From a virus, in IMG/VR virus record IMGVR_UViG_3300036830_000036, positions 1 through 41,843 of that record: a DNA stretch of 41,843 bases; one strand, given 5' to 3'. The translations under genes were made by a program, and so were the position numbers. Below, one piece after another: positions 277 to 41,843 of this stretch. How positions within the stretch are numbered: the stretch's first letter is position 1; every line of letters begins with the position of its first letter. The notes beneath the pieces are model-generated. The model had not been told where the DNA came from and did not search any database. It saw nothing but the letters and a program-made list of their open reading frames with translations.

Positions 277-1175
277 ATCGCGCGCTGGAAAACGGGGTTC
301 CAGCTCCAGAGAGGGTTGTTGTCCTGCACGATCTGACCGATCTGCATGGGACGCGCGCAGATCCAATTCTGCTGCATGGTGTCCTGATCGTAGATGATCC
401 CGTTCGATTTCGTTCCAGAGCCGAAGCCCGCGCTCGGCAAGTCGCACACTGCACATAGTTCAGTCGTCGCGAGGAAGTCGCGCAATGTCTTGAGCGAGAT
501 CACGCCTGAACCGCTGCCGGACTTGATCGTCGACATTGCATCGCTGTTCACGTCCGACGTCGAGAACAATCCGAGTTGCCCGGAAACGATCTGTTGCGGC
601 TTGCGCATGAGTTGATAGGTCTGACCGCCACTGGAACGGCTCCATGCGGTTGAATCCTGCACGTCTGCCGTCGGCTGCGAGCCGCTTGACGGTGCCACGA
701 GGGTCGGCAAGCGGATCACGCGCCCGACGAATATCTCGCCGATGCCGAAGGTCTGGCCGGCGGTGATGGGCGACGAACCGCTGACGTTATTGAAAATCCG
801 AATCTTGAACGAGTTGCCCGTGGAGAATGGCAGCATCCACGCGCACAGTTGACCGCCGACGCCATTCGCCACGTTCTGAGTCGCGAGTAGCGTTGCGCTG
901 GAGTCGAGCACTTGCATCACAGTTCCTAGCGGTAGCCCCTCGATCGCGGCGATCCCGACCACACCGAGCACGGCAGTTGCATCGAGCGGCGAGGAAACGG
1001 TGACGTCGATCTCAACGTAACTCGACGTTGTCTGCGAGCCGCCAATCCATGACATCGAGCAGGCGATCCCTTCGCGTCCGTCGTTCATCGCAGCAGCGGG
1101 CGTCAGGAAGGCAGCGCCGCCAGCGGAGCCGGTGATCGTGAAGGAAAGTTGGTTGTTGCCGTAGCCGATGTCCAC
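273..1175 (-). CDS. Tail-tip-associated structural protein (putative)
   Basis: A 300-aa protein starting at GTG 1175, with AGGAT about seven bases upstream. It is the last gene of the leftward structural unit, nine bases after the tail hub-like gene. The first half is beta-rich and Gly/Ser/Thr-rich like a jelly-roll or carbohydrate-binding tail part; the second half has TAWSRSSGGQTYQLMRKPQQ and a WNPVFQRAI end. I do not recognise a named family. Position and composition suggest a tail-tip or receptor-binding accessory. Its stop (TAA, 275-273) overlaps the stop of the converging gene. Confidence 0.6.
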   Translation of the reverse strand: MDIGYGNNQLSFTITGSAGGAAFLTPAAAMNDGREGIACSMSWIGGSQTTSSYVEIDVTVSSPLDATAVLGVVGIAAIEGLPLGTVMQVLDSSATLLATQNVANGVGGQLCAWMLPFSTGNSFKIRIFNNVSGSSPITAGQTFGIGEIFVGRVIRLPTLVAPSSGSQPTADVQDSTAWSRSSGGQTYQLMRKPQQIVSGQLGLFSTSDVNSDAMSTIKSGSGSGVISLKTLRDFLATTELCAVCDLPSAGFGSGTKSNGIIYDQDTMQQNWICARPMQIGQIVQDNNPLWSWNPVFQRAI

Positions 1176-1184
1176 TGCGCGATC

Positions 1185-3386: not shown

Positions 3387-3961
3387 TTGTCGAAGGTGAA
3401 AATCGGGTAGGAGAGAAGGTTCTGGCCGGCATTGATGAAGGCCGAGACGTCGCCGACAATTGTCGAACCGATGCTCACGGCCAGCACGTAGAAAAGTCCC
3501 GCGGTCAAGGTGGCCTGAAAGATGACATTGCCGTTCACCATCCATACGGCGATCGGGGGCGAGACCGTGTTGTCTATCGCCACACCGATGACTTGCCGCT
3601 CCGGCGTAACTTGAAGGGCTGGGGTGTACGATCCTGAGATCGATGCGCCATTGTTGTAGACCGCAGCCTCCGTCGGTCGATAACCCCACGAGGTTGCTTC
3701 CTCGCCAACGTACATGCTGAGTGAAGATTTCGCCCCAGCCACGCCGACGCTGCACAGATTCGCAAGCCCCGCCGCTGGTTGCGACACGCTATAGAACTGA
3801 CACTCGAAGCACGAGACGCCAGCCGCTTGCGCCAACGTCCCGAACACCGCGCGCTCGATATCGCAGACGTCCGTCGTGGTGACGACGAGATTGCCTTGGT
3901 CGAGTGTGAGGCTCGGACCGAGACGGTGCGGGTCGAACGTGGCGAGTATCTTTGTGGTCAC
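3383..3961 (-). CDS. SPRY/B30.2-like tail-associated protein
   Basis: A 192-aa protein. It shows the pattern of phage SPRY-domain proteins: a Gly-rich SVGVAGAKSSLSMYVGEE segment, SWGYRPTEAAVYNNG, then VIGVAIDN and an IAVWMVNG strand. SPRY folds are beta sandwiches used for binding proteins or glycans, so a receptor-recognition or tail-decoration role is likely. It overlaps the upstream adhesin gene and the downstream hub gene by four bases each, so the three are probably translated together and assembled on the same structure. Confidence 0.6.
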   Translation of the reverse strand: MTTKILATFDPHRLGPSLTLDQGNLVVTTTDVCDIERAVFGTLAQAAGVSCFECQFYSVSQPAAGLANLCSVGVAGAKSSLSMYVGEEATSWGYRPTEAAVYNNGASISGSYTPALQVTPERQVIGVAIDNTVSPPIAVWMVNGNVIFQATLTAGLFYVLAVSIGSTIVGDVSAFINAGQNLLSYPIFTFDK

Positions 3962-26734: not shown

Positions 26735-27133
26735 TCAAGGCTCGTCCCTTAAATACCGCACGAACTCCACCAGTGCTTGAAACAGTTCCGAGGGCTTGAC
26801 GTTCGCGCTCAAGTTCCCGCGCCAACTGTGCCCATTCGCTCCGCGTGTAACCAGTCTGGCAACTTCGTAACCCCTCGCAGAAAGCCCGGTGTAACGCGTC
26901 TGCACGCCTTCCGTCGCTTTTTCCATCTCTTCCGAGAGTTGGATAAATTCCGCGTGCTCCAGAATGAGATTCTGCAGGCGGTCGGGATGCTTGAGTGGCA
27001 TCGCTTTGGTCGACAAGGCGCGCGCTCTCAAGTCCCGCGAACGCTGTATCACGGTTTCGATGCTCAAGCATGTGGTCTCGACTCGTGGTTGTAAGGATGC
27101 GCGACGGGGCTGCGGATCATCGTGTATTCGCAT
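26735..27133 (-). CDS. First gene of the late leftward block, unknown function
   Basis: 132 aa from ATG 27133; an internal ATG at 27001 (residue 45) is an alternative start because the first 44 residues are Arg-rich and no Shine-Dalgarno precedes 27133. The C-terminal 85 residues look globular and helical (RLQNLILEHAEFIQLSEEMEKA, YEVARLVTRG, LFQALVEFVRYL). It lies between the antiterminator region and the endolysin. No family recognised. Confidence 0.5.
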   Translation of the reverse strand: MRIHDDPQPRRASLQPRVETTCLSIETVIQRSRDLRARALSTKAMPLKHPDRLQNLILEHAEFIQLSEEMEKATEGVQTRYTGLSARGYEVARLVTRGANGHSWRGNLSANVKPSELFQALVEFVRYLRDEP

Positions 27134-27245
27134 ATACAGGGTGTGGCCGTCAAATTAGGAGTTAAACCGGCCGTACACGATGCCATCAGCGCGCTTCACA
27201 GCGGACCTCGACGGAAACGCACTCTACCTGCCGCGCATGTAAGGT

Positions 27246-27300
27246 CGCCCGCTTTTAGGCTCGGCCTTGACTGAGGGGGTCAGAATCTCGAGAGCGGGCG
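27246..27300 (-). other. Extended hairpin in the 27134-27394 non-coding gap
   Basis: CGCCCGCT pairs with AGCGGGCG (8 bp, 27246-27253 / 27293-27300); inside, CTCG/CGAG and CTGA/TCAG stack toward a five-base loop. It lies just after the terminator, in the leader of the late block. A further imperfect repeat, GTGTGGCCG / CGGCCGTACAC, is at 27141-27178. The rest of the 260-base gap shows no gene. Confidence 0.4.
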
Positions 27301-27304
27301 GCGG

Positions 27305-27338
27305 AAACGAAAAGCCCCCGGTTTTTGGCCGAGGGCTT
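27305..27338 (-). terminator. Intrinsic terminator after the Q-like gene
   Basis: Leftward: AAGCCCTCGG, seven-base loop, CCGGGGGCTT then TTCGTTT. A 10-bp stem with one G-U pair. It marks the end of the early leftward block, the position where a Q-type antiterminator would act. Confidence 0.75.
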
Positions 27339-27394
27339 GTATCGCACTATGCGCGGAATTTATTCGGTCGTCGCCTACTTTGCAAGGTTTATTT

Positions 27395-27811
27395 TCAGCG
27401 TCTTGCAATTTCCATTGCCGAGAACCATCCGCCGAGAAAGCCGCGGCCCTTGTGCAGCAGTTGGTGATACTTCCCTTTTCGGACGCTCAATCCTGATTCG
27501 GCGAGTAGCGCATAACGTTCGTCATCTGCCGATGCGCTGCCGATCAGGTAGTGGACGCGGAGCACCTTCGCTGAGTCGCTAGTGCCGTAGCCGCGTTCGG
27601 GTTTCTGCACGCGCCCCATGATGGTGACGACCTCTTCGACATCGTCGCCCCACGTTCGACTGCGGCCACGTATGCCCCTATGCGGGATGAAGCCTTTGTG
27701 ATCGATCAGGGTTTGCAAGATATTATTGGAACCGCCGCCACCAGTATCGTGACCAGAGCCGTACTCGCGCACCCATGAGCGCAGGTAGTCGTTGAGGCGG
27801 CCGTCGTTCAT
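27395..27811 (-). CDS. Putative late antiterminator, Q-like (DUF1133-like)
   Basis: 138 aa from ATG 27811, overlapping the RusA stop by ATGA. The C-terminal half (SDSAKVLRVHYLIGSASADD, then LAESGLSVRKGKYHQLLHKG) resembles the helix-turn-helix-like end of phage Q/DUF1133 antiterminators, which load onto RNA polymerase near the late promoter. The gene order RusA - this gene - terminator - lysis genes is the classic Q position. Sequence identity to a named Q family cannot be checked here. Confidence 0.5.
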   Translation of the reverse strand: MNDGRLNDYLRSWVREYGSGHDTGGGGSNNILQTLIDHKGFIPHRGIRGRSRTWGDDVEEVVTIMGRVQKPERGYGTSDSAKVLRVHYLIGSASADDERYALLAESGLSVRKGKYHQLLHKGRGFLGGWFSAMEIARR

Positions 27812-28323
27812 GCGCGCCACATCTCTCGACCGGTGGCGCGAGGCGTGTCGATATTGGTCAAATCGACCGCATAACCGATTTGTTCCAGCTCGATATAAGC
27901 GCCCGGATAGCTAAGCGAGTGCATACCCTCATGCGGGAAGCGTTTCGCGAGCGCGTATTCAACAATGCGTGCGTCGTCGGCGATGATTCCAGACGTCACG
28001 AGAGCGTCTTCCGTGGATCGCGCCAATTTTGATAGGTCGGGCTTTCGATGCGGGTAGGTGCGCTTGGTTTTGGGAGCCGATTGCGGCTTCGGCAACGTGA
28101 AAACCATCGTACAGCGCAGCGGCCCATCCAGTTGCTCGAATTTTCCGCCGACCGATTCGGCTACGTCGATGACGGCGGCGCAAGCGGTGACTACACATTG
28201 CCGCCACGGCTTTACCTTTTTCGACGACTCAATGAGGATACCGCGCCCCGTTCCCTTGGCTATGCCGACAAAGCGTTTCGACCCCTGCGGTGCAGGTTCC
28301 CCGATTACGACTATCCGAATCAT
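27808..28323 (-). CDS. rusA: RusA-like Holliday junction resolvase
   Basis: 171 aa from ATG 28323 (ATGA overlap with the Ref-like gene); the longer frame would run back through that gene. IVVIGEPAPQGSKRF at the start, RKPDLSKLARSTEDAL in the middle and IIADDARIVEYALAKRF after it are the RusA core, with conserved Asp residues (PDL, DD) for metal-dependent junction cutting. Length exceeds E. coli RusA (120 aa) because of a longer central loop and C-terminus. It probably resolves branched replication or recombination intermediates before packaging. Confidence 0.9.
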   Translation of the reverse strand: MIRIVVIGEPAPQGSKRFVGIAKGTGRGILIESSKKVKPWRQCVVTACAAVIDVAESVGGKFEQLDGPLRCTMVFTLPKPQSAPKTKRTYPHRKPDLSKLARSTEDALVTSGIIADDARIVEYALAKRFPHEGMHSLSYPGAYIELEQIGYAVDLTNIDTPRATGREMWRA

Positions 28324-28664
28324 ACGACCGCCCTCAATCGTTCGTTCTGTAACTGTAGCAAATGATCGTCGCTGCCGTAATGCTCGTGAAAGGTTCGGGA
28401 ACCGTTGGCGAGGCTTGGCCCCATCTGATACCACGATTCGATGAACTGAATCGGGCAAGCGCGGTGGTGCCACGGACATAGGCCGATCGTGAATTCGTGA
28501 CCGCGGCGGATATTGCCGCTTTTCAGGTGATGGATTTCAGGCGCGTTGTAACCGTTGCCGTCGATGTGACAAGCCAAACATCCATCGAGCTTGATCTCGA
28601 CGAAACGGCGCTTCTGCGCGAACGTCGCTGGTTTGCCGCGGCCTCGTGGGGTTTTCGGAATCAT
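28320..28664 (-). CDS. Ref-like RecA-dependent nuclease
   Basis: 114 aa with the P1 Ref pattern: GCLACHIDG, APEIHHLKSGNIRRGHEFTIGLCPWHHRACP, and a C-terminal MGPSLANGSRTFHEHYG. The HNH-type core with Cys pairs and H-H is typical of the Ref family, which cuts DNA at RecA-made D-loops. It lies in ATGA overlap with both the HNH-AP2 gene upstream and RusA downstream. It probably supports recombination together with RusA and the NinB-like protein. Confidence 0.85.
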   Translation of the reverse strand: MIPKTPRGRGKPATFAQKRRFVEIKLDGCLACHIDGNGYNAPEIHHLKSGNIRRGHEFTIGLCPWHHRACPIQFIESWYQMGPSLANGSRTFHEHYGSDDHLLQLQNERLRAVV

Positions 28665-29173
28665 ACGTCACAATACCGTTGGCGATGGCTGCCGTGGTTC
28701 GGATGAAAACCGTAGATTATCTCAGCGTGTTTTCGCGCCGCCGCGCATTCCGCTTTATTTGAGAACACTCCGAGATGAATTGTTTCGCCATCTACGCATA
28801 TTTTCCCAACCCATGCGTTCAAGTCGTCGCGCCAATAAACGCCACAGATGCCTGACGTATTATTAGATCTCAAACGCTGGTTTCTTCCGTTGCTCGTGTT
28901 GTCTGCCGCATTCAGATTCTTCCATCGATTGTTATCTCTATCGCCGTCATCATGATCTATTTGAAAAGTCGGGAAGGCTCCAGTCATGTAAAGCCACGCA
29001 AGACGATGTGCCCTGTACCTGCACTTGCAAACGCCGATATACCTATAGCCTGCCGACTTTATATCGCCGACGACTGAACCTGCTGCTGAGCGCCGCTGAT
29101 GAATCAGCCGAGTGAAAACGCCGGTCGTGGGATCGTAATGAAGATGCTTTTTCAATTCAGCTTGCGTAATCAT
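28661..29173 (-). CDS. HNH-AP2 homing-type endonuclease
   Basis: 170 aa. HNH core: YRAHRLAWLYMTG, FQIDHDDGDRDNNRWKNLN, followed by the NTSNGRNQRLRSNNTSGICGVYW segment and an AP2-like DNA-binding part (WVGKICVDGETIHLGVFSNKAECAAARKHAEIIYG). This is the usual structure of phage free-standing homing nucleases. It sits between the NinB-like and Ref-like genes with four-base start/stop overlaps on both sides, so it is translated in the operon. It is a mobile element or has been adopted as part of the recombination set. Confidence 0.88.
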   Translation of the reverse strand: MITQAELKKHLHYDPTTGVFTRLIHQRRSAAGSVVGDIKSAGYRYIGVCKCRYRAHRLAWLYMTGAFPTFQIDHDDGDRDNNRWKNLNAADNTSNGRNQRLRSNNTSGICGVYWRDDLNAWVGKICVDGETIHLGVFSNKAECAAARKHAEIIYGFHPNHGSHRQRYCDV

Positions 29174-29631
29174 TTTAGATCAGCATCCCTCTTTTCCTTC
29201 CAAAATTTATCTGGGTCTGGAATGTAAACGCCGCCCTCTGACGCCTTGCGCCGAATATGCTCGACGAAATCCCAGAACGTTTTCCCGTCGAGCGTGTCTT
29301 TGTCGCCGTTCTCGTCGGTTGTAGTGGTGCGGACCGGGCGCGAGACCTTCTCGCCGTTCGGTTTGGTGTGAATGTAGCGCCCGAAAAATTCCATCAGGTA
29401 GAACTCGTGCAGGTCTTCGTCAGTGAATCCCAACTCGCGCACGAGGTACGGATATACGACCGACCAAAGGTACTGATTCGAGTCCAGCGTGCGCGGCTTG
29501 CGGTAGCGCACAATGCTGATCTTCCACGCGAACGAATCGTCGAGCGTTGCGATTTCCTTCGAGACGTTCTGCATAACGCCGTCTCGGGTCGAGTCGCCTT
29601 TCGGGTGCAGGATGTAGGTGATGGGCTTCAC
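29170..29631 (-). CDS. NinB-like recombination protein
   Basis: 153 aa. KISIVRYRKPRTLDSNQYLWSVVY resembles the conserved LDQN-W helix of NinB/YbcN proteins; YIPDPDKFWKEKRD at the C-terminus fits the family end. NinB-type proteins bind ssDNA and help load RecA-like recombinases. Coupled by ATGA to the methyltransferase upstream and to the HNH gene downstream. The family assignment is moderate because the middle part is diverged. Confidence 0.6.
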   Translation of the reverse strand: MKPITYILHPKGDSTRDGVMQNVSKEIATLDDSFAWKISIVRYRKPRTLDSNQYLWSVVYPYLVRELGFTDEDLHEFYLMEFFGRYIHTKPNGEKVSRPVRTTTTDENGDKDTLDGKTFWDFVEHIRRKASEGGVYIPDPDKFWKEKRDADLK

Positions 29632-30731
29632 GAGGTCACGCTTGCGAAGAGTGGTGCGTCGCCAGTGATGCGTCGCTCGGCGATAGCGGCGTAATCAGGA
29701 TTCAATTCGATGCCGATGCAATTGCGCTGCAGGCGATCAGCAACGAGTCCGGTTGTGCCTGCACCGAAGAATGGATCCAGAACAGTCCCGTCAACGGGAC
29801 ATCCGGCTTTAATGCACGGCTCAATCAAGTTCGGCGGGAATGTGGCGAAATGCGCTTCCTTGAAACCTGTCGTCGAAACGTTCCAAACAGATTTCTTATT
29901 GGCCGTAAAGTCACCGCTAGCGTCGGCGTTGCGCTTGTCCGCTGTGAATCCACTACCGCCCTGTGTCGGATGCCATTCTTTGCCGCTTTGTAAACGCGTA
30001 TCGGAACATGGATTGTTGCCGCCAAACTTGACAGCCTTCATGTTGCCGTTTGTCTTTGCGGGCACACGATCGCTGCCAACTTGCGATTCCACGTCTTGTG
30101 CGACTCTGGCGACGCTGGAAGGTTGCGCGGGTTCACGAATGGCTTTCTGATCGTAAAAATAATTCTTGGACTTACTGAGCAAGAAAATATATTCGTGTGA
30201 CTTCGTGCAACGATCAGTCACGCTTTCCGGCATCGGATTCGGCTTGTGCCAGATGATGTCCTGACGCAGATACCAGCCCTCGGCGCGAAGCGCGAAGGCG
30301 AGCATCCACGGAATGCCGATAAGATCCTTTGCCTTGATTCCGTCGAACGTCTTACGCGTGACATTTGTCACGGCCGCCTCGCGCGCTGTCTTGCCCGTTC
30401 CGTACAGGCAACCTACGGACTGCGATCCTGCGTTCGTGGCTTGCTTACTTGAGCCAGGATCGGGGTTGCCGCCTTTGCCGCTGCCCGCATAGCTATCGCC
30501 AATATTGAGCCACAAAGTACCGTCGCCGCGCAAAACGCGCCTGACCTCGCGGAACACCTCGACCATGCCGGCGATGAACGCCTCCGGCGTTTCTTCGAGT
30601 CCCATCTGTCCGTCGACACCGTAGTCGCGCAGGCCGAAATACGGCGGTGATGTTATGCAACAGTGGATGGATTGATCGGGCAGTGTCTTGAGGACATCGC
30701 GGCAATCGCCTTGAATTATGCGCGTGCTCAA
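29628..30731 (-). CDS. DNA methyltransferase (TSPPY type)
   Basis: 367 aa. Catalytic motif IV CCITSPPYFGLRDYG at about residue 30, AKDLIGIPWMLAFALRAEGW and HKPNPMPESV in the middle, and motif I VLDPFFGAGTTGLVADRL near the C-terminus, with NCIGIELNPDYAAIAERRI. This is a beta-type amino methylase; TSPPY is common in N4-cytosine enzymes, but N6-adenine cannot be excluded. No restriction partner is seen, so it is an orphan that probably protects phage DNA from host restriction. It overlaps the helicase gene by ATGA. Confidence 0.92.
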   Translation of the reverse strand: MSTRIIQGDCRDVLKTLPDQSIHCCITSPPYFGLRDYGVDGQMGLEETPEAFIAGMVEVFREVRRVLRGDGTLWLNIGDSYAGSGKGGNPDPGSSKQATNAGSQSVGCLYGTGKTAREAAVTNVTRKTFDGIKAKDLIGIPWMLAFALRAEGWYLRQDIIWHKPNPMPESVTDRCTKSHEYIFLLSKSKNYFYDQKAIREPAQPSSVARVAQDVESQVGSDRVPAKTNGNMKAVKFGGNNPCSDTRLQSGKEWHPTQGGSGFTADKRNADASGDFTANKKSVWNVSTTGFKEAHFATFPPNLIEPCIKAGCPVDGTVLDPFFGAGTTGLVADRLQRNCIGIELNPDYAAIAERRITGDAPLFASVTS

Positions 30732-32155
30732 AACGCCCTCTCCTGCAACGGAAGGTCTGCCGTCGCTGCGGCAGCTTTCTTTCTCAGCCCGCGTTTTGGA
30801 ATGACCGGCGGAGGCGGAAGTGGTAGCGGCCCGGACAGCGTGCGCAGTTGCATCAGGTCGTAATGCGCTTCCAGAAAGACGCTGTGGTTTGTGCCGATGT
30901 TGCGGCCCTTGCCGAAGATGATTTCGGCGTAACCTTTCAGGTGCGTATCGGGTTTGTATACTTCTTCGCGATGTATAAAAAGTATCACGTCACCGACTTC
31001 CTCGATTTCGCCGGAGCCGCGAAGATCGCCCAAATTGGGCCGCACTTCGCCGCGCAACACGTCGAGCATTTTTCGATTGAGTTGGACGAGTAGCACGACA
31101 GGTATCTTTAGCTCTTTTGCCAGAGCTTTCAACTTCCGGTTTATGTCGCCAAGTTCCGACACTTTCGCGCTTTCCGGGCCAGTGCGTTTTATTTCGCCCA
31201 AATGGTCGACGACGACCATTTTCAACGGGTGACGCAAATGTTCGCGTTTGGCGCGCGCGATTATCTGATCGACGGTGATCTGCGCCTGATCGTCGATATG
31301 CAGCGGCGCGGCGTTCAGCGCGCACATCGCCTTCGTGATGAGCGGCCACTCGTCGTCGGATAGAAGCTTCGGTCGGCGGATCGTCGCGTGCTTTATTCCG
31401 GTCATTTCCGACACAAGACGCTCGACTATGCTTTTGCCAGACATTTCCAGCGAGAAGATCGCCGCTGCTCCCTGCGTCAGCGCGCAAAAAGCGGCGGCGC
31501 AATGTCCCATAACGCTTTTTCCGTTCGACGTTCTGCCGGCGATGATGGTCAGTTCTTCCGGCTGGAAACCTAGCGTCGCGTTATCCAGATCCAGCCACGG
31601 CGTAGTGACACCGGTCATCTCGATCCCGCGCTCGTATCTGGCATGCATGTCGGCCCACCACGAGGCGAGTACGGTCTTGACGGGCGACAGTCCGCCGACG
31701 CGCGAATCGCCAACCATCGAAGAAACCAGCGTCGCGGCTTTGCTGGCGATCACGGACGCGTTGCCGGTGCGATCGAAGGCTTCCGAGGTAATCGCGCTTC
31801 CGATGTCGATCAGCTCGCGCAGCTTCGCCTTCTCGCGCACGATCTCGCCATAGGCCACGATGTTCGCCGCCGAGGGCACCGCCGCGCCCATCTTTAGGAC
31901 ATACCCGGTGTCTATCTCTGGGGCATTCGCTTCAAACCATTCCGCCAGCGTCACGTTGTCGTGCGGCTTGCCTTGCGCGTTCAGGTCGATAATGGCCTTG
32001 AACATCGCCCGGTGATCCGCGCGATAGAAGTCCGATTCATGCAACCAGTCCGACACCTTCGACAACGCGCCTTCGTCGATCATCAGCGCGCCAAGTACAG
32101 ACTCCTCGGCATCGTTGGCATGGGGCGGCGTGCGCAGCATTTCAGGGCGCGCCAT
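30728..32155 (-). CDS. dnaB: DnaB-like replicative helicase
   Basis: 475 aa from ATG 32155, with GGAG upstream; the longer frame upstream is the shadow of the preceding gene. N-terminal DnaB domain: NDAEESVLGALMIDEGALSK to about residue 110. RecA-like motor: LTIIAGRTSNGKSVMGH (Walker A), AAIFSLEMSGKSIVERLVSEM, KMVVVDHLGEI (Walker B), and GSGEIEEVGDVILFIHREEVY with the arginine-finger region. It unwinds DNA at the fork and probably pairs with the DnaT-like protein encoded just upstream. No primase is seen, so host DnaG is likely used. Confidence 0.93.
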   Translation of the reverse strand: MARPEMLRTPPHANDAEESVLGALMIDEGALSKVSDWLHESDFYRADHRAMFKAIIDLNAQGKPHDNVTLAEWFEANAPEIDTGYVLKMGAAVPSAANIVAYGEIVREKAKLRELIDIGSAITSEAFDRTGNASVIASKAATLVSSMVGDSRVGGLSPVKTVLASWWADMHARYERGIEMTGVTTPWLDLDNATLGFQPEELTIIAGRTSNGKSVMGHCAAAFCALTQGAAAIFSLEMSGKSIVERLVSEMTGIKHATIRRPKLLSDDEWPLITKAMCALNAAPLHIDDQAQITVDQIIARAKREHLRHPLKMVVVDHLGEIKRTGPESAKVSELGDINRKLKALAKELKIPVVLLVQLNRKMLDVLRGEVRPNLGDLRGSGEIEEVGDVILFIHREEVYKPDTHLKGYAEIIFGKGRNIGTNHSVFLEAHYDLMQLRTLSGPLPLPPPPVIPKRGLRKKAAAATADLPLQERAF

Positions 32156-32516
32156 ATTCGCGCTCCGCCTGCTTGCCTGCGTTGGTAAGCTGGTAATTGC
32201 CTTCTGTGTCGATGTACCAGAAGCGCGGCCAGCCATTGCGGATCGAGTTCGTGAAGTGCGCCGGCCAGTCCGTATAGCGTTTCTGTTTCTTCTGCTGCCC
32301 GTAGTAGTTCGCGAACCATTCCCACGCAAGCTCGATGAACTGATCCGGCATTCCGACTTTCTTCGCGTACTCGTAGGGCTTCGAGTCGTCCGTGAAAACC
32401 GTGTGATCCTCCGGGAATTGAGCCATCCATTCGCCGAAGGTCTGGCCTTTCGACTTTCGCTTCGCGCCGTTGAGCGCGAGCTTCTCGGTGTCTTTTCCGC
32501 AATGGGGACAAATCAC
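32142..32516 (-). CDS. Replication protein with zinc ribbon and DnaT-like C-terminus
   Basis: 124 aa. It starts MICPHCGKDTE, a half zinc ribbon. The C-terminal WEWFANYYGQQKKQKRYTDW and PAHFTNSIRNGWPRFWYI resemble the conserved end of DnaT-like/phage helicase-loader proteins (W..HF.N..R). It overlaps the helicase start by 14 bases and the small gene upstream by ATGA. The role as a loader of the phage helicase is inferred from this and from the gene order. Confidence 0.6.
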   Translation of the reverse strand: MICPHCGKDTEKLALNGAKRKSKGQTFGEWMAQFPEDHTVFTDDSKPYEYAKKVGMPDQFIELAWEWFANYYGQQKKQKRYTDWPAHFTNSIRNGWPRFWYIDTEGNYQLTNAGKQAEREYGAP

Positions 32517-32659
32517 TTGCGCACCAGCCGTAACGGTCGCGGCTGATTCTCTAACCGCGCCTCGCGCCGCCAGAAAACGACAGCCTCGGCAGGTTTGAGA
32601 TCGCGCGGATGCGTGCGCTCAAGGCGGTGCGCATAGCGGATGCAGGTTGACCAGTTCAT
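32513..32659 (-). CDS. 48-aa basic protein, unknown function
   Basis: ATG 32659 is preceded by GAGGGGAG, a strong site, and the frame ends in an ATGA overlap with the zinc-ribbon replication gene. The protein (MNWSTCIRYAHRLERTHPRD, then AEAVVFWRREARLENQPRPL) is basic and helical. The Rmf-like gene stops 11 bases upstream. The longer open frame would lack a start signal. Possibly a small nucleic-acid-binding protein. Confidence 0.6.
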   Translation of the reverse strand: MNWSTCIRYAHRLERTHPRDLKPAEAVVFWRREARLENQPRPLRLVRK

Positions 32660-32670
32660 CGAACTCCCCT

Positions 32671-32859
32671 CTAGGTTTGCTGAAACGCTTGCTGCTCGTC
32701 GAAACCACGCAGCCACCAAGAAACAAGCATTGTGGTTCGTATATTTGCCGATGCCCCTTTCAAGCCGCATGGATGCACGCGAGGTTTACCTTTTGACCGC
32801 GCTTCGCGTCCAGCGTTATAGGCATTTCGATTCGGCGTTCCCTTGTTTGGCATCAGCAT
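32671..32859 (-). CDS. Rmf/CrpP-like small protein
   Basis: 62 aa from ATG 32859, with AGGA about nine bases upstream. The core NAYNAGREARSKGKP, then PCGLKGASANIR and VSWWLRGFDEQQ has the order of ribosome modulation factor and the related phage/plasmid CrpP family (A..AG...G.....CP......R..W..GW). RMF dimerises ribosomes; CrpP was reported to act on antibiotics. In a phage replication operon a translation- or metabolism-modulating role is possible, but untested. Confidence 0.6.
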   Translation of the reverse strand: MLMPNKGTPNRNAYNAGREARSKGKPRVHPCGLKGASANIRTTMLVSWWLRGFDEQQAFQQT

Positions 32860-32932
32860 GTAGCCGTCCTAATTCTTAGAAAACCTTTCGCTCTCAAAGC
32901 TCTTCCTGTAGACGCTCTTTCGAGGCTTTCAG

Positions 32933-32976
32933 ATTATAAAGATCCATTCGTGAAGACCGTTCCAGCTTGTCTGGAA
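32933..32976 (-). promoter_or_regulatory. Candidate leftward promoter with adjacent inverted repeat
   Basis: Leftward TATAAT (32938-32933) is a perfect -10 element, about 70 bases upstream of the Rmf-like start. No good -35 is found at 15-18 bases; instead a perfect TTCCAG-N5-CTGGAA repeat (32960-32976) starts where the -35 should be, which suggests regulator control. A rightward TATAAA overlaps the same bases. Confidence 0.45.
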
Positions 32977-33021
32977 TGGCGCACCGCCCCCCATCCCCCA
33001 ATCCATTGAAGGTGAGAAACG

Positions 33022-33269
33022 GCGCATCGTGCGCACTGATCCGGCTGGGCCTATCGACCCGGAGAACCGTCTAGTTCTCCCCATCGGCTCGCCCGGACCT
33101 AAGCCCACGAGCGCACGCTACCGACCATTCTGCTTGCGTGCAGAATCGGGGTTGCGTTGCCTTGGGGGGATCGGTTGCGGTATTCTGCAAATCGATCGGA
33201 GCGCGCGGCAACGCTTCTCCGACATCAACCCCCGGTTTTGCTGGAATGCGAACCGGGGGTTTCTTTTTA
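33022..33269 (+). ncRNA. Candidate structured non-coding RNA ending in an intrinsic terminator
   Basis: The interval has no convincing protein gene but several perfect inverted repeats. CGTGCGC (33028-33034) pairs with GCGCACG (33111-33117) and encloses GGAGAAC-N6-GTTCTCC (33061-33080), with GGGC/GCCC and CGA/TCG pairs between them separated by small symmetric internal loops. ATTCTGC-N6-GCAGAAT (33127-33146) and CGGAG/CTCCG follow, then the terminator. The terminator works only rightward, yet no rightward gene lies upstream, so it must serve an RNA. A start near TTGCCT-N18-TATTCT (33157-33186) would give about 75 nt; an earlier start would give about 250-320 nt. The whole region could instead be an origin. 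Confidence 0.5.
33227..33269 (+). terminator. Rightward intrinsic terminator
   Basis: Perfect 11-bp stem AACCCCCGGTT / AACCGGGGGTT with a 13-base loop, then TCTTTTT. There is no U-run in the leftward direction, so the orientation is clear. Confidence 0.85.
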
Positions 33270-33348
33270 CGCCTTCTGAAACCTAACTGTCAAATCCGCC
33301 GCGATTTCGCTCGCGGACAGCGCTGGGTTATCTATCCGAGGAGCTACC

Positions 33349-33573
33349 TCAAACTTCGACCGGAGGCTTTCCGTCGTCGCTCAACGCCACGCGCGCGCAA
33401 CCCCGACCAACAACTTCGACCTGTTTCTCAGGTTCTATCGGCGGAAACCCGCAACACGCCATGAAGTGAAGCATCGTCACGCCCGGAGTATGGCATTCGC
33501 ACGTACAGAGCGACCCGTCTGCGAGATAGCCCGCTGGCGTGCTTAGATCGGGAAATCGACTGTTGATGCTCAT
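33349..33573 (-). CDS. Small Cys-rich phage protein
   Basis: 74 aa. LCTCECHTPGVTMLHFMACC holds a compact cluster of Cys and His residues likely to bind zinc, with a Pro-rich continuation (GFPPIEPEKQ). Small proteins with this CxCxCH...CC pattern recur in phages of Gram-negative soil bacteria, without known function. Starts in an ATGA overlap with the 60-aa gene, so it is co-translated with the regulator set. Confidence 0.65.
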   Translation of the reverse strand: MSINSRFPDLSTPAGYLADGSLCTCECHTPGVTMLHFMACCGFPPIEPEKQVEVVGRGCARVALSDDGKPPVEV

Positions 33574-33752
33574 GCCGCAACTCCCATCCGCGCTTCCATG
33601 CGCCGAATCTGCTCAGGCGACCGACCGTGAATAAGGTTCGTCTGCAGAGACCAGTAATAGCGGCGCAGCGATTCCGTCAGCCCGGATTGTTGTCCGAGCT
33701 TGGTCATGTCGCTGATCGCTTTTTCTCTTTCCATATCCGTAAGGGTTTGCAT
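33570..33752 (-). CDS. Small helical protein after the regulator, unknown function
   Basis: 60 aa from ATG 33752, with GGAGAG about nine bases upstream. It is charged and helical (REKAISDMTKLGQQSGLTES, then IRRMEARMGVAA). The start overlaps the end of the regulator gene by 49 bases in another frame. No family recognised; a regulatory partner is possible because it is the second gene of the leftward unit. Confidence 0.55.
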   Translation of the reverse strand: MQTLTDMEREKAISDMTKLGQQSGLTESLRRYYWSLQTNLIHGRSPEQIRRMEARMGVAA

Positions 33753-33952
33753 GATGGTGCTCTCCGCTTGCTCTTATCCAGAGCGATTAGGGGCAGCCCG
33801 ATCCTCGTGCTTGGGTCTTGCCCGTTTTTGATCCTGTGAATTTGTTGCTGCGAGGAACCGATCTGTACCGCGATCTCTCCCTCCGACCAGTCGCGCGATA
33901 TGAGATTGCGGACTGCCAGCGTCGCCTCATTGGTTCCGTTTGGTTTCTTCAT
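33704..33952 (-). CDS. XRE-type helix-turn-helix regulator (Cro/CI-like switch protein)
   Basis: 82 aa from ATG 33952. The HTH is WSEGEIAVQIGSSQQQIHRI, followed by a basic C-terminus. A longer frame to 34024 would cross the leftward promoter and is not expected to be translated. The A of ATG is only ten bases after the -10 element and the bases between are CCCC-rich, with no Shine-Dalgarno, so the message is leaderless or nearly so, as for lambda cI from PRM. No CI-size repressor or integrase is present, so this single small protein probably balances the two divergent units by binding the CACACGGATRTG sites. Confidence 0.72.
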   Translation of the reverse strand: MKKPNGTNEATLAVRNLISRDWSEGEIAVQIGSSQQQIHRIKNGQDPSTRIGLPLIALDKSKRRAPSCKPLRIWKEKKRSAT

Positions 33953-33961
33953 GGGGCGGGA

Positions 33962-33990
33962 ACATAGCGCAAAAGAATCCACTTGTCCAC
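33962..33990 (-). promoter_or_regulatory. Leftward early promoter for the regulator operon
   Basis: Read leftward: TGGACA (33990-33985), 17-base spacer, TATGTT (33967-33962). The predicted start is at or within a few bases of the regulator ATG (33952). Confidence 0.65.
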
Positions 33991-34000
33991 ACGGATATGA
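33989..34000. promoter_or_regulatory. Operator O2, CACACGGATATG
   Basis: Near-palindromic copy of the 34023-34034 site. It overlaps the end of the leftward -35, so binding could control the regulator's own promoter. The bases just before are shared too (CCACACGGAT). Confidence 0.55.
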
Positions 34001-34011
34001 AAAATAGTTGT

Positions 34012-34040
34012 TGACGATGCCCACACGGATGTGTAATCTC
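34012..34040 (+). promoter_or_regulatory. Rightward early promoter TTGACG-N17-TAATCT
   Basis: Near-consensus -35 at 34012-34017 and -10 at 34035-34040 with optimal 17-base spacing. The spacer is occupied by operator O1. It should start the rightward early operon near 34047, leaving a leader of about 140 bases. Confidence 0.75.
34023..34034. promoter_or_regulatory. Operator O1, CACACGGATGTG
   Basis: CACA-CGGA-TGTG is a clean inverted repeat in the spacer of the rightward promoter. The second copy lies 34 bases to the left. Binding of a small HTH dimer here would block RNA polymerase. Confidence 0.6.
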
Positions 34041-34044
34041 CGTC

Positions 34045-34160
34045 CCTGTGATGACGAACGGGGTAGCTGACCGTTCAGGGCTTGGCGCTCGGGTCTCCCC
34101 TACCTTGATGCGCAGCAAGTCCGCCTCACCACAGAGGCAAGCCGGGATCAGCTCCGGCCA
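34045..34160 (+). promoter_or_regulatory. Structured 5' leader of the rightward operon
   Basis: CCCT (34045-34048) pairs with AGGG (34078-34081), and GAACGG (34057-34062) with CCGTTC (34072-34077). Further short stems follow: CTTG/CAAG near 34100-34120 and CCGG/CCGG near 34140-34160. A leader with hairpins close to the start of an early operon recalls put-type antitermination RNA of phage HK022, but no sequence match is claimed. Confidence 0.4.
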
Positions 34161-34187
34161 TCACGCTAACCAAAACGGGAGAACACA

Positions 34188-34334
34188 GTGAACAAATTCA
34201 TCTACGGCGAAACTCGCCTACGTTTCAAGATCGCTTTGATTATCGCGGTGATCTTTCTGGCCGGCCGCGTCTCTGGCGAAGTGCGCGACGGCCTGATTGA
34301 TTCTCTCGGCCAACACTCAACGGGGCAACCATGA
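34188..34334 (+). CDS. First rightward early gene, single-TM micro-protein
   Basis: 48 aa from GTG 34188, with GGGAGA seven bases upstream. It begins MNKFIYGETRLRFK, then one membrane span (IALIIAVIFLAGRVSG) and a polar tail. It ends in an ATGA overlap with the next gene. First genes of early operons with a single membrane span are often superinfection-exclusion or host-takeover factors; here this is inference from position only. Confidence 0.65.
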   Translation: MNKFIYGETRLRFKIALIIAVIFLAGRVSGEVRDGLIDSLGQHSTGQP

Positions 34335-34483
34335 AAAAGGTTATCGGTTTACTGATCTTCGCCGCGCTCTTGTGGGGCGCGATTGCTGCCGCTCAACCTG
34401 CACCGGAAGACGACGGGATATTCATCGACGGGTTCGATCTGCCGTTGGAAATCTACCCGATCGTTTTGCCGCCGGAGGAGTGA
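34331..34483 (+). CDS. Small secreted or periplasmic protein
   Basis: 50 aa. Signal peptide MKKVIGLLIFAALLWGAIAA with a likely cut after AAA-Q (near residue 22). The remaining acidic peptide (PEDDGIFIDGFDLPLEIYPI) is about 28 residues. Starts in ATGA overlap with the single-TM gene, so the two may act together at the envelope. No family recognised. Confidence 0.6.
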   Translation: MKKVIGLLIFAALLWGAIAAAQPAPEDDGIFIDGFDLPLEIYPIVLPPEE

Positions 34484-34486
34484 GGC

Positions 34487-34801
34487 ATGATCGACGTCAG
34501 CACGTTCCAGATCGCGCATAACGAGTTAGACAACTGCCTCGAAGTGACGCACGAGCACCGCACAGCGGCGAAGGAATTGATCGGACAGGACGATTACAAG
34601 GTGTTCGACTTCGTGCTCGAAACGATGGGCAGCGCGGATCGGCACGACGTAGCGCGCGCGATCTACAACACGTTCTCGAAGGAACAGTTGGCCGCTTTCG
34701 AGAAACATTTCGCGGCCAGCATCGAAGAACGCGCCATCGAACTGCGCGACGAGCAGGAAGACTACCTGCGCCGCGAGGCTGCACGAGGAGAAGACGCATG
34801 A
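34487..34801 (+). CDS. Early acidic helical protein, unknown function
   Basis: 104 aa from ATG 34487, with GGAGG 8 bases upstream overlapping the previous stop. It is helical and charged (CLEVTHEHRTAAKELIGQDD, VLETMGSADRHDVARAIYN, FEKHFAASIEERAIEL). No transmembrane span and no family recognised. It ends with ATGA into the next gene. Confidence 0.6.
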   Translation: MIDVSTFQIAHNELDNCLEVTHEHRTAAKELIGQDDYKVFDFVLETMGSADRHDVARAIYNTFSKEQLAAFEKHFAASIEERAIELRDEQEDYLRREAARGEDA

Positions 34802-38105: not shown

Positions 38106-38314
38106 TCGTTCTATTCCTGACACTGCTCGGCGTGCCATCTCAACATCAGATCAGCGCGTTTTCCTTCGACTCTGGGGCCAAGTCGTTTTCGTACACCGAG
38201 GCAGGCGTGCAGCATTCGCAAGCGGGCATGGTGATTTTTTCTTACACCAACTCGAACGGCTCAGCGACATTGGTCGTCAAGAGTGATGCGATATTTGCAA
38301 ACGGCTTTAACTAA
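38102..38314 (+). CDS. Small protein with hydrophobic N-terminus
   Basis: 70 aa in ATGA overlap with the exonuclease stop. The first 13 residues (MIVLFLTLLGVPS) are hydrophobic, then beta-rich and Ser-rich (FSYTEAGVQHSQAGMVIFSY). The hydrophobic part may be too short for a typical signal peptide. No family recognised. Confidence 0.5.
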   Translation: MIVLFLTLLGVPSQHQISAFSFDSGAKSFSYTEAGVQHSQAGMVIFSYTNSNGSATLVVKSDAIFANGFN

Positions 38315-38325
38315 AGGAGAAAGAA

Positions 38326-38910
38326 GTGTTCCAAATAAACGCAAGCTGCACGCTGAAAAAGGTTCTCCCACGCAAGGGATCGAGCGACGAGTCCGAGGTT
38401 ATGGTCGACCTGCATTTTGAATGCGAGACGCTCACAAGCGAGGCGGCGTTCACCGCGCTCGGCTACCCGGCAAACAAGGATGCGGAAGACCCTTACGCCG
38501 ATGTGCGTGGAGCGTTCTTCCAGTCGCTTTCCGTCGATGCCGATCAGAACCGGCGCTTTCGTGGGCTGAAATATATTCAGACAGACTTCGCGCACGAGAA
38601 CAAGCATGCGATCACGGTATCGGGGCTGCGCAAGTTGCGGGTCTACAAATTGTCGAACGTGCGTCTCGTGCCCGCGCGCGCCGGCCAGTTCTCGTGTGCG
38701 TTCCGCGTGACGCTGGAACACCCGCCGGAGTCGTACATCGACGCGCTGTCGAACAAGATCAACTCGCTGGTGAAGGTTCGTCTCGATCAAGACGGCGACC
38801 TGTTCGATGCAGCGACCGAGGAACCGGCTGCGGTCGAAACCAAGGATTTGCTCACCGAGCAGGATACGAAGCCGAATAAGCGCACCAAAGACCGTAGTCT
38901 TACCCCATGA
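38326..38910 (+). CDS. Early protein downstream of exonuclease, possible ssDNA-binding role
   Basis: 194 aa from GTG 38326 with AAAGGAG six bases upstream. Beta-rich middle with VMVDLHFECETLTSEAAF, LKYIQTDFAHENKHAITVSG and KLRVYKLSNVRLVP. The C-terminal 40 residues are acidic and then basic (DLLTEQDTKPNKRTKDR). Proteins of this size in this operon position often bind ssDNA or serve recombination, but the OB fold cannot be confirmed by eye. Family uncertain. Confidence 0.55.
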   Translation: MFQINASCTLKKVLPRKGSSDESEVMVDLHFECETLTSEAAFTALGYPANKDAEDPYADVRGAFFQSLSVDADQNRRFRGLKYIQTDFAHENKHAITVSGLRKLRVYKLSNVRLVPARAGQFSCAFRVTLEHPPESYIDALSNKINSLVKVRLDQDGDLFDAATEEPAAVETKDLLTEQDTKPNKRTKDRSLTP

Positions 38911-39101
38911 CCCCGCCAACCTCAGCGGCGCAGAAGGAGGAATGTTGTGATGACTGGAAACCGAACGTAGATAAGATAAATAGTTTCATCACAACCGCAT
39001 GTGCGCGCGCTGGCAAATATGATTTGTACGACGGCAAGCCATTTGTATTTTGTCCTTGGTGTGGTGCAGCCCGCGCCACGCGCGACCCGGAGGATGTATG
39101 A
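38907..39101 (+). CDS. Small zinc-ribbon-like protein
   Basis: 64 aa in ATGA overlap with the preceding gene. It holds ECCDDW early and FCPWCGAAR (a C-x-x-C knuckle) near the C-terminus. Zinc binding is likely. The short internal segment is helical. It is one of several Cys-rich micro-proteins in this operon. Confidence 0.6.
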   Translation: MTPPTSAAQKEECCDDWKPNVDKINSFITTACARAGKYDLYDGKPFVFCPWCGAARATRDPEDV

Positions 39102-39262
39102 ACGACGTTATGAAAGGTGTCGGAATTGTGCTTTGGTCGATAGCTATGTTTCTGTGGGGCTTCCACTTTGGCACATGGGCTGTGTCAGACGACTGCAACG
39201 ACCACGGCCACTTCAAATACAACGGCGAGAAGTATGAGTGCAAAGCACCGGAGGCCAAGTGA
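39098..39262 (+). CDS. Single-TM micro-protein
   Basis: 54 aa from ATG 39098 (ATGA overlap). One membrane span VLWSIAMFLWGFHFGTWAV, followed by a polar, Asp/Lys/Glu tail. A longer frame from 39050 would cross the preceding gene. No family recognised; the periplasmic or cytoplasmic side is undetermined. Confidence 0.55.
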   Translation: MNDVMKGVGIVLWSIAMFLWGFHFGTWAVSDDCNDHGHFKYNGEKYECKAPEAK

Positions 39263-39777
39263 ACGCACAATGGCAACCGATTGAGACTGCGCCGAAGGAT
39301 GGAACTTGGCTGCGCGTCATGTGCGCCAACGGAAAAGAGGATCGCCAGCGGTGGTGTGACTATACCGGCGATAAATACCGCACGCTGGATGGTGAATGGG
39401 ATGCCGAGCTTGGCGAAGGTGATCCGACATATTGGATGCCGGTGAACGCGCAGGGCGAGACGTGGACGGCGGAGGTGTTAAGCGTTGACCCATTTGAAGG
39501 CGACTACGGCGGGAGTGGATCAGGTGATCGTATTTTGTCCGACGCAGTTGTTACGTGCCGCAAAGCTGCAACGTGTCATGCGTGCAATGGTCAATGCGAG
39601 CCTAAAACGGCAATCCGGCGACGTGTCGAAGTATACGACGGAGAACTAATGTCATTCGCGTGGTGCAACGCATGCTGTAAGGCAATGGCCGACTACAGCA
39701 AAAATCCAGAAGGACTAGAAGCTAGATACGAAATTGGCGAGTTAGCCCGCGCCCACGCACTAGGAGAGGAAAGGTGA
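39259..39777 (+). CDS. DUF551-like protein with zinc-binding C-terminus
   Basis: 172 aa from GTG 39259 (GTGA overlap). The N-terminus reads NAQWQPIETAPKDGTWLRVM, the DUF551 signature (W.PIETAPKDGT), and TYWMPVNAQGE closes that part. The C-terminal half has CRKAATCHACNGQCEP and WCNACCKAMA, paired cysteines likely to bind zinc. This fusion is longer than a typical lone DUF551 phage protein. Early accessory; role unknown. Confidence 0.7.
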   Translation: MNAQWQPIETAPKDGTWLRVMCANGKEDRQRWCDYTGDKYRTLDGEWDAELGEGDPTYWMPVNAQGETWTAEVLSVDPFEGDYGGSGSGDRILSDAVVTCRKAATCHACNGQCEPKTAIRRRVEVYDGELMSFAWCNACCKAMADYSKNPEGLEARYEIGELARAHALGEER

Positions 39778-40010
39778 TCGAGCTTAGATGCGATCAGAAA
39801 ACGCTTGAGATAGCGTTTGAAACATGCGGTGCGGATTGGCAAAACACGTTTCACGATGCGCTGGTGGCACACGCAATAGTTAAGGCACTCGATGAGTTTA
39901 TTGCTAATCCACACGGAATGCTGAATAACGCAAATCTCTCAGAAAGATATTCGGCGGTCTACTCGCGGGCAGCGTCAATTCTAGAGCACGAATTTGGAGT
40001 AAAGCCATGA
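39774..40010 (+). CDS. Early small protein, unknown function
   Basis: 78 aa from GTG 39774 (GTGA overlap, AGGA upstream). Helical and mildly acidic (KTLEIAFETCGADWQNTFHD, then YSRAASILEHEFGV). No family recognised. The DNA here is visibly AT-richer than the structural genes, which may mark recently gained accessory sequence. Confidence 0.5.
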   Translation: MIELRCDQKTLEIAFETCGADWQNTFHDALVAHAIVKALDEFIANPHGMLNNANLSERYSAVYSRAASILEHEFGVKP

Positions 40011-40417
40011 CCCCTCAACCCTCCGCACTGGCGGCGCTGCAACGGTATGACATCGACGGGAAAGGTGTGCGCTACTTATCGGTAAACGGTTATTACTTCG
40101 TCGCGGATGACGTTCTCGCCGCATGGCCGACGCAGGCGCAGGGAGCGGTAGCGTGGCAACAACGACGCAATTTTCATACTCATGGATATGGCGATTGGGA
40201 AAATATCAGCAAGAATGCTTACGACGATGGCGTAACCCACCCGAACATTAACTGGCAATACCGCAAGCTATCCACCCACCCCTCACCCTCGACGGCCGCC
40301 TTGCGCGAGGCGTATGAGCGAGCTATCGAAGAATGTCCAAATGCCGTGCTGAATCTAGGCGACGCTAAAGGATGGATACGTGAGCGCACCCGCACGCTGC
40401 TGGAGGGAGATAACTGA
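40007..40417 (+). CDS. Early accessory protein, unknown function
   Basis: 136 aa in ATGA overlap with the previous gene. It has a beta-rich N-terminus (YDIDGKGVRYLSVNGYYFVA), a Trp/Tyr-rich middle (WENISKNAYDDG) and a helical C-terminus (AALREAYERAIEECPNAVLN). The AALREAYE..I region recurs in phage accessory proteins. No domain confirmed. Confidence 0.5.
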   Translation: MTPQPSALAALQRYDIDGKGVRYLSVNGYYFVADDVLAAWPTQAQGAVAWQQRRNFHTHGYGDWENISKNAYDDGVTHPNINWQYRKLSTHPSPSTAALREAYERAIEECPNAVLNLGDAKGWIRERTRTLLEGDN

Positions 40418-40418
40418 A

Positions 40419-40952
40419 ATGATTACACCGAACAAACCGAAGTCGCCAAGTCAGCGCGCTAGTGATGCGCTAATTGCTGGTGCCATGAATGACGAGTCGA
40501 ATGTGCTGCGCGAAACACCAGAACAACTGCGCGAACTGGCCGTTGGTTTAATTGGCCCTGCCGGCGGCTCGATGAGCGACCGCGATACTTCTCGTTACAT
40601 CATGATCCTTGCTGACGCTATAGAGAATATCGCATCCCTCACGCGCGAGAAGGCGGAACTATTGATAGATGAGGAATGGCGCAAGAAAGCTATTGATGAT
40701 TTGCGCGACTTAACTTTAGCGAATGCAACCCTGCGCGCCGAACTCGACGCGGCGAAAGTTAAGGTTGCACGATATGACTGGCTGACAGATGGCAACGCTT
40801 ACGAACATGCGGACGACGATCAGCCGTATATCTCGCGACAGTATCGTGATTCCTACGGTAATAACCGCGATGAAATTCTATCGCCGGAAGATGCCGCGAG
40901 GGAAATAGACACCGCCTGCTCCCGTGGCGAGACAGGGGAGAAAATAGGGTGA
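40419..40952 (+). CDS. Early helical protein, unknown function
   Basis: 177 aa from ATG 40419 with GGAGGGAG upstream. Helical with a central coiled coil (IASLTREKAELLIDEEWRKK and LANATLRAELDAAKVKVARY) and an acidic C-terminal part. A serine-rich lead precedes DALIAGAMNDESN. Similar composition to phage coil proteins; no catalytic motif. Ends in GTGA overlap with the next gene. Confidence 0.5.
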   Translation: MITPNKPKSPSQRASDALIAGAMNDESNVLRETPEQLRELAVGLIGPAGGSMSDRDTSRYIMILADAIENIASLTREKAELLIDEEWRKKAIDDLRDLTLANATLRAELDAAKVKVARYDWLTDGNAYEHADDDQPYISRQYRDSYGNNRDEILSPEDAAREIDTACSRGETGEKIG

Positions 40953-41314
40953 GCGAATATACAAACCAATATCATGAGAACGCCTTCATCGACTTTCCGG
41001 GCAAGCAGGCCAAGGAAAAGTTTAGCTACCATCCATCGCCAGCCGAGTGCCCTAAGTGTTTCGGATATGGCGGCTGGAATATACGCATCAACGCTTACAA
41101 GTTGCGTGATGGGATGGAAAACACGCCAGAGAATCGTCATCGCCATGTTCACTTCCGCGCAAGCTGCGATCAGTGCAATGGCTGGGGATGGCTTAATCCG
41201 AAAAATGCCTCCTGCGTTCACGATTTCAGCATTGAGCGCAACGTCGGGAGGTGCCTCACGGAAAACACATGCAGCAAGTGTGGCTACAAACAAACCATTG
41301 ACAGCAGCGACTAA
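40949..41314 (+). CDS. Cys-rich protein with DnaJ-like zinc repeats
   Basis: 121 aa from GTG 40949 (GTGA overlap). Two C-x-x-C-x-G-x-G motifs, ECPKCFGYGGW and SCDQCNGWGW, resemble the zinc repeats of DnaJ; a third CxxC (CSKCGYK) lies at the end. It is likely to bind two zinc ions and may recognise protein or nucleic acid. Function unknown. The next gene starts 18 bases downstream and crosses the junction. Confidence 0.6.
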   Translation: MSEYTNQYHENAFIDFPGKQAKEKFSYHPSPAECPKCFGYGGWNIRINAYKLRDGMENTPENRHRHVHFRASCDQCNGWGWLNPKNASCVHDFSIERNVGRCLTENTCSKCGYKQTIDSSD

Positions 41315-41332
41315 AATACGAGGTGCCGCACC

Positions 41333-41843
41333 ATGAGCGATGACACACCAGTTAAAAATACTGATCGAGAACTATGGCGTGAGACTAAAGGCGATTATTA
41401 CGCACCGTCAATTCACGTTACTGAGCAAGGTGGAATAGGTATCAATGTCGGCGGCATGGCTTACGTCAAGTCACTGCGCGAATGGCACAAGTTAGCCGCC
41501 CCACCAGCTTCGCACCGCCACCCGTTGGCTGCGCGGCTGGTGAGTGATTTGCGAATTGAGGAACATCGCCTGCGAAAGTTAGGTGCGAACCATACTGCAG
41601 ATATTTTGCAGCGCGCACACGCCCGGATAGAACAACACGACACACAGCCCGCCGCGCAAGGCGATAGTGCGCAGATTGAACGTGCGGCTAAAGCGATTTA
41701 CGAAAGCTACCGATTCGGCGCGCCGGAAAACTATCCGTGGCAAGAACACGGCAACAGCTTAAAACAGGATGCGGCACGCGACTATGCACGAACCGCATTA
41801 GCGACACTATCTCATCCCCCGCAGCCGGTGACGCCAGTGGAGG
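41333..41843 (+). CDS. N-terminal part of the junction-spanning rightward gene, unknown function
   Basis: ATG at 41333 follows GAGG with about nine bases of spacing. The first 128 aa lie before the repeat boundary, and the remaining 91 aa are read from bases 1-276. The start reads MSDDTPVKNTDRELW, followed by a short Gly-rich turn and polar helices. The repeat copy at 41717-41843 is the same coding sequence as 1-127. No domain is recognised. Its position at the end of the early unit suggests an accessory role. Confidence 0.75.
   Translation, partial: MSDDTPVKNTDRELWRETKGDYYAPSIHVTEQGGIGINVGGMAYVKSLREWHKLAAPPASHRHPLAARLVSDLRIEEHRLRKLGANHTADILQRAHARIEQHDTQPAAQGDSAQIERAAKAIYESYRFGAPENYPWQEHGNSLKQDAARDYARTALATLSHPPQPVTPVE
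41717..41843. repeat. Right copy of 127-bp direct terminal repeat
   Basis: Exact copy of bases 1-127 (both start GGCGCGCCGG and end GTGGAGG). It lies inside a protein-coding gene, which argues against a packaging terminus here. The unique genome length is therefore about 41,716 bp. Confidence 0.95.

Follow-up and report, generated by a model that had tools for sequence, protein, structure and literature searches.

Why does a long phage operon carry, in a gap of about 490 nt between an ORF ending at 33349 and one starting at 32859, a stretch of strongly structured sequence? The window, meaning the whole stretch of DNA analysed here, is a virus record of 41,843 bases from a tailed phage (matches to terminase, portal and head proteins). 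Its nearest named-phage terminase is that of Pseudomonas phage PAJU2 (58.8%), and its loader and DnaB resemble those of Bordetella avium phages. The leftward operon is long: after a cro-like HTH gene (33704-34024) come small genes, the loader and DnaB, and then further genes (methyltransferase, NinB, HNH, RusA, lysis and head genes). A rightward operon carries Erf and a RecE-type exonuclease. The sequence in the gap is very likely a real control element, because a distant relative, IMG/VR record G049, keeps its hairpins with different letters, and it is probably read in both directions. The features discussed below are as follows.

About 30728-32155, minus strand: DnaB gene.
32142-32519, minus: loader gene.
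32671-32859, minus: gene of 62 aa next to the gap, downstream in the operon, with a weak Rmf/CrpP-like match.
32913-32920, plus: boxA-like CGCTCTTT, upstream (5') of the element; possible, not essential.
32956-32980, both strands (independent folds on both): hp0, a 9-bp hairpin CCGTTCCAG/CTGGAATGG.
32981-33025, minus: 20-bp G.U-rich helix, 33025-33006/33001-32981, a pyrimidine-rich arm against a G-rich arm.
33038-33099, minus: leftward stem 33099-33093/33044-33038 enclosing hpC; 7 pairs, 2 with double changes.
33061-33080, forms on both strands: hpC, 8 pairs, 6 with double changes on minus.
33109-33151, both strands: near-invariant block GAGCGCACGCTACCG..CATTCTGC.TGCGTGCAGAATCGGGG with two inverted repeats, identical in G049 except for 1-2 nt indels.
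33113-33125, minus: ops-like GTCGGTAGCGTGC, 12 of 13 letters of ops GGCGGTAGCGTGC, with the mismatch at position 2.
33146-33223, plus: hp3, a long rightward hairpin and the most stable part (z -5.7).
33227-33268, plus: intrinsic terminator, an 11-bp perfect stem (33227-33237/33251-33261) and TTTCTTTTT (33260-33268).
33349-33573, minus: gene of 74 aa next to the gap, upstream in the operon.

The original prediction described an untranslated, structured rightward RNA at 33022-33269. The inverted repeats that it named all exist when checked by position: CGTGCGC/GCGCACG, GGAGAAC/GTTCTCC (33061-33067/33074-33080) and ATTCTGC/GCAGAAT (33127-33133/33140-33146). Its boundaries were too narrow. The element extends left to about 32956, for a length of about 320 bases, and the most stable hairpin (33146-33223) had been missed. 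On the plus strand, 33018-33265 folds with z -5.9 (none of 200 dinucleotide shuffles was equally stable) and its flanks fold ordinarily (z -0.8 for 32930-33017, -1.4 for 33266-33348). Nor is the fold confined to the rightward strand, as had been supposed, since the minus strand of the same interval gives z -4.2. A 200-nt fold scan of the whole window, in which regression corrected for G+C, ranked 32951-33150 on the minus strand as the most extreme of its 1666 windows, and four more from the element region were among the top 14.

For the plus frame that stays open across the interval the score per codon is -0.05, where 88 gene windows give 0.24 +/- 0.15. As a tblastn query this frame found no phage match. 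The alignment with G049 contains 1- and 2-nt indels over the element, which speak against a shared reading frame. The interval is thus non-coding, as predicted, and strongly structured. No Rfam family reached its gathering score anywhere in the window; at relaxed E-values Atu_C7, NsiR1, rnk_pseudo and anti-hemB overlapped the terminator, far below their cut-offs, and were rejected.

The relative was reached through a DnaB alignment scan of IMG/VR, among the best 80 of 511 relatives. Its homologue (locus L223) lies at the matching place, between cro-like and replication genes. When the gap was compared by blastn with 299 loci, the window's own copy being set aside, L223 was the one clear match, at 78% over 187 nt (E 1e-31), and there too the stretch lies antisense to DnaB. 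The neighbours are partly kept (60-aa gene 42%, loader 36%, DnaB 44%), whereas the operon's next genes downstream are not the same. No other nucleotide match between the two genomes is as strong as that of the RNA segment. In this comparison of two phages, whose proteins are mostly 23-47% identical, the sequence of the element is held more tightly than the surrounding genes.

Compensatory changes were counted with a less biased test, in which each sequence was folded alone and confident pairs coinciding within 2 nt were scored. On the minus strand 85 of 97 pairs agree, with 27 double and 7 one-sided changes; on the plus strand 56 of 95 agree, with 21 double and 2 one-sided changes. In column shuffles (60 per strand) the mean was 7 for agreeing pairs and about 2 for double changes, and the highest values were 29 and 9. 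RNAalifold on a structure-naive alignment gave z -5.1 (plus) and -6.5 (minus), equalled by none of 200 column shuffles each. Since both tests far exceed the shuffles, the structure of the element, as judged from two members, is under selection. It is a structured RNA element without an Rfam match and with many compensatory changes between two phages. The prediction had looked to a relative for such changes, and they are there; of its elongated nested hairpin, the apical part is kept in G049 and the outer stem, CGTGCGC/GCGCACG, has no counterpart.

The claim of the leftward strand to structure is at least as good as that of the rightward strand. More can be said from G.U cells, i.e. those pairable on one strand only. 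Right of 33116 there are 9 on plus and 1 on minus; left of it, minus has 44 agreeing pairs and 18 G.U cells, plus 17 pairs and 2 G.U cells. Because these cells divide the element at 33116, strand use appears split: the left part (32956-33115) fits leftward operon mRNA, and the right part (33146-33268) a rightward RNA. A structured rightward RNA therefore survives for the right half, and the left half favours the opposite transcript.

Individual helices follow the same division. The 20-bp helix region has z -6.6 on minus and -0.5 on plus, and the helix shows 4 double and 6 one-sided changes with 14 G.U cells in the independent folds; its loop is UGGA in the window and CGGA in G049. In hp0 the relative has CCGATTCCG/CGGAATTGG, with 3 double changes in a hand alignment. 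On the right, hp3 has 26 agreeing plus-strand pairs in the independent folds, with 4 double and 2 one-sided changes and 8 G.U cells, and is better by 15 kcal/mol on plus than on minus. Pairing of a C-rich linker with hp3 was considered and dropped, as the two phages use different positions.

The predicted 11-bp terminator with a T-run on the plus strand only is confirmed, and G049 keeps it rightward as AAACCCCGCCT/AGGCGGGGTTT followed by TTTTCTTTTT. Together, hp3 and the terminator with its conserved T-tract (33146-33268) fit a rightward RNA of about 125 nt. Among loci up to L261, 11 cases of an antisense terminator near DnaB were examined besides L223. In ten, an antisense ORF ends 19-178 nt short of the terminator, and the remaining one (L250) lies inside antisense ORFs; in none of the 11 does a strongly structured stretch precede the terminator (z -2.7 or weaker).

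On the leftward strand, the near-invariant block holds the ops-like site, GCCGGTAGCGTGC in G049 (20639-20627, minus). Measured against the ops 12-mer GGCGGTAGCGTG, both phages have 11 of 12 letters on the operon's non-template strand, with position 2 the only mismatch. The pattern G.CGGTAGCGTGC occurs once per phage, both times on the operon strand, and twice in 4.45 million strand-bases of the other loci. In a dissection of ops (eLife 2018; PMC5995543), the passage available states that all substitutions but G2C reduced the RfaH effect; G049 has the tolerated C at position 2 and the window has T, a letter outside that passage's coverage. The JUMPstart family RF01707 scores 16.5 and 16.3 bits against a cut-off of 35 (E 0.81 and 0.89), which is not significant alone, and this lead arose from a scan of 4227 Rfam families. 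Conservation of the block reaches well beyond ops.

Several suggestions can be made regarding what the element does. The one we prefer, tentatively and at somewhat less than even chances, is a bidirectional control element: a leftward ops-like pause or antitermination leader with a short OOP-like rightward RNA against it. RNA polymerase coming leftward from the cro-like genes would cross the ops-like pause site and then make the conserved chain of hairpins. We infer that this leader would load a factor for antitermination or ribosome coupling, either RfaH or a different specialised host NusG; alternatively, it may otherwise set the expression of replication and late genes. Rightward, the RNA of about 125 nt would be made against the leftward mRNA and would damp it in the manner of lambda OOP, through pairing or a head-on collision. 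Several points stand against such two-way use: there are only two members, no sigma-70-like plus-strand promoter was found in 32300-34600, neither phage encodes a NusG homologue, and the hand alignment taken alone favours plus throughout. In its most specific form, a new phage RNA element of two opposed structured RNAs, with the leader loading a host RfaH-type factor at ops to carry transcription through replication and late genes and the terminator-ended RNA countering it, the suggestion is unlikely to be right in every part.

Instead, one non-coding RNA, about 320-400 nt long, could run rightward from near the boxA-like site to 33268, as an enlarged OOP-like antisense or trans-acting RNA; this would extend the original prediction. 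We consider this rather improbable, and it has its merits. In the hand alignment 71 plus-strand pairs carry 21 double changes, 1 one-sided change and no break, and 142 of 142 cells pair on plus against 133 on minus; the helices, however, were selected on plus, which biases these counts to that strand. The conserved terminator and the greater strength of hp3 on plus would suit such an RNA. So would the boxA-like site, which has a counterpart at the matching place in G049 (CGCTCTTA at 20433, plus, its sole copy in 32.7 kb, flanked by CTTCTGGT and ACCAGAAG). For boxA, the site of NusB/NusE, a role in shielding rRNA transcription from Rho has been proposed (PMC4807359). The site here, which is an 8-mer and was spotted only afterwards, would speak for an untranslated transcript running rightward. 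Against this stand the lower agreement of independent folds on plus than on minus, the 20-bp helix region, unstructured on plus and strongly folded on minus, and the lack of a recognisable promoter.

Less probable still, the leftward mRNA alone might matter, as a structured leader with an ops-like site, and the rightward terminator would only stop stray antisense transcription. Fold agreement on minus, the ops-like site and the long operon downstream would all be accounted for; the 8 G.U cells by which hp3 pairs on plus across both phages, and its stability on that strand in the window, would not. A DNA element (replication origin or operator, acting through hairpins in single-stranded DNA or through protein binding to the invariant inverted repeats) is quite improbable: the place upstream of the loader and DnaB genes, a block invariant without covariation whose two inverted repeats resemble protein-binding sites and the partial match of the loader-like protein noted below speak for it, the G.U cells of the 20-bp helix and hp3 point to RNA, a repeat search of the gap found no iteron array, and for the origin or promoter mimic of the original prediction no evidence was found.

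No third member was found, and the element is known from two phages. Searching phages and plasmids for DNA similar to the region yielded nothing beyond short chance matches, and the top one, 34 nt in Paraburkholderia (E 0.09), folds differently; with the G049 RNA as query nothing better appeared. Single-protein DnaB scans of IMG/VR and GTDB genomes gave no relative, a neighbour-gene scan gave G049 alone, and DNA and DnaB searches of 45 contigs with TerL relatives (from the best 80 of 327, including most of the longer contigs) gave no RNA homologue. Covariance models of 33086-33225 (plus, R1) and 32954-33101 (minus, R2) found beyond chance only the two founding members in 88 sources each, and in 49 and 46 records they recovered G049 alone; because both models contain both members, their scores are not independent support. 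A weak R1 match in G048 is chance; there is another weak one in L275, and weak R2 matches have E 0.2 or more. Pattern scans returned 2 and 10 stretches in viral contigs and 4 in GTDB genomes, which besides G049 are all chance or a coding family.

A few further observations concern the surroundings. The protein encoded directly downstream of the element (32671-32859, minus) resembles Rmf/CrpP weakly, with matches below cut-off (NF041887, E 0.003). Between it and the element lies a possible leftward ORF of 17 aa (32893-32946, minus; MDLYNLKASKERLQEEL), with TATAAT near its start. By eye, TTGACA at 33288-33293 (minus) with TAAAAA 18 nt downstream makes a candidate leftward promoter, overlapping the rightward terminator. 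The loader-like protein is short (32142-32519, minus, in the window; 4579-4992, plus, in L223) and has a CPHCG/CEHCG motif at its start. As its match covers just a part of a longer replication protein of a Bordetella phage, the mode of origin recognition may be different. In G049 (26859-31459) the rightward operon is joined directly to leftward tail-side genes, and the window regions concerned are 1-4051 and 38311-41645. This gene order suggests that the genome is circular or permuted and that the two ends of the window adjoin each other in it; no integrase module was seen between them.

We know other systems with which the element can be compared. The lambda OOP unit (pO-oop-tO), as described in the passages cited (PMC5869508, PMC3985674), likewise lies on the strand opposite the early operon, on the way from the cro/cII side to the replication genes, and ends at an intrinsic terminator, as the element does in both phages. 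OOP lies at the equivalent place, and the rightward RNA may act as antisense against the leftward transcript, an idea that the original prediction had raised. The passages cited describe OOP as acting on cII mRNA in a way that depends on RNase III, and pO as influencing replication through its opposition to transcription from pR (PMC5869508, PMC3985674, PMC12197685). There are differences. OOP is described as overlapping the end of cII by 52 bases, whereas here the T-run ends at 33268 and the nearest leftward ORF at 33349, about 80 nt short. The RNA would be more structured here. As for a counterpart of the promoter pO, no sigma-70-like plus-strand site was found in 32300-34600. Neither of the two records, which may be incomplete, shows a tyrosine integrase or an S24 repressor, which makes a role in lysis-lysogeny less likely. 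If the opposed rightward RNA exists, it would make the role of OOP-position transcripts testable in phages seemingly without the lambda lysogeny genes.

Leaders for processive antitermination are another comparison. Like lambda nut, the element would be a structured untranslated RNA in an early operon with a boxA-like motif nearby; unlike in nut, the motif is on the strand opposite the operon. The put sequence of HK022 is also a phage processive antitermination leader to which the element may be likened.

The last comparison is with JUMPstart/ops (RF01707), the RfaH loading site. The likeness lies in 12 of 13 ops letters on the operon strand in each phage, with a conserved stem-loop upstream and a long operon to follow. 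The differences are position 2, the Rfam score below cut-off, the place in an internal gap rather than the first leader, and a host for which no RfaH is known; RfaH proteins are about 95% proteobacterial according to the passage cited (PMC7593976). The passages returned by our literature search held no phage use of ops. If the ops reading is correct, these phages would borrow a bacterial route of operon-polarity suppression for a long operon of their own.
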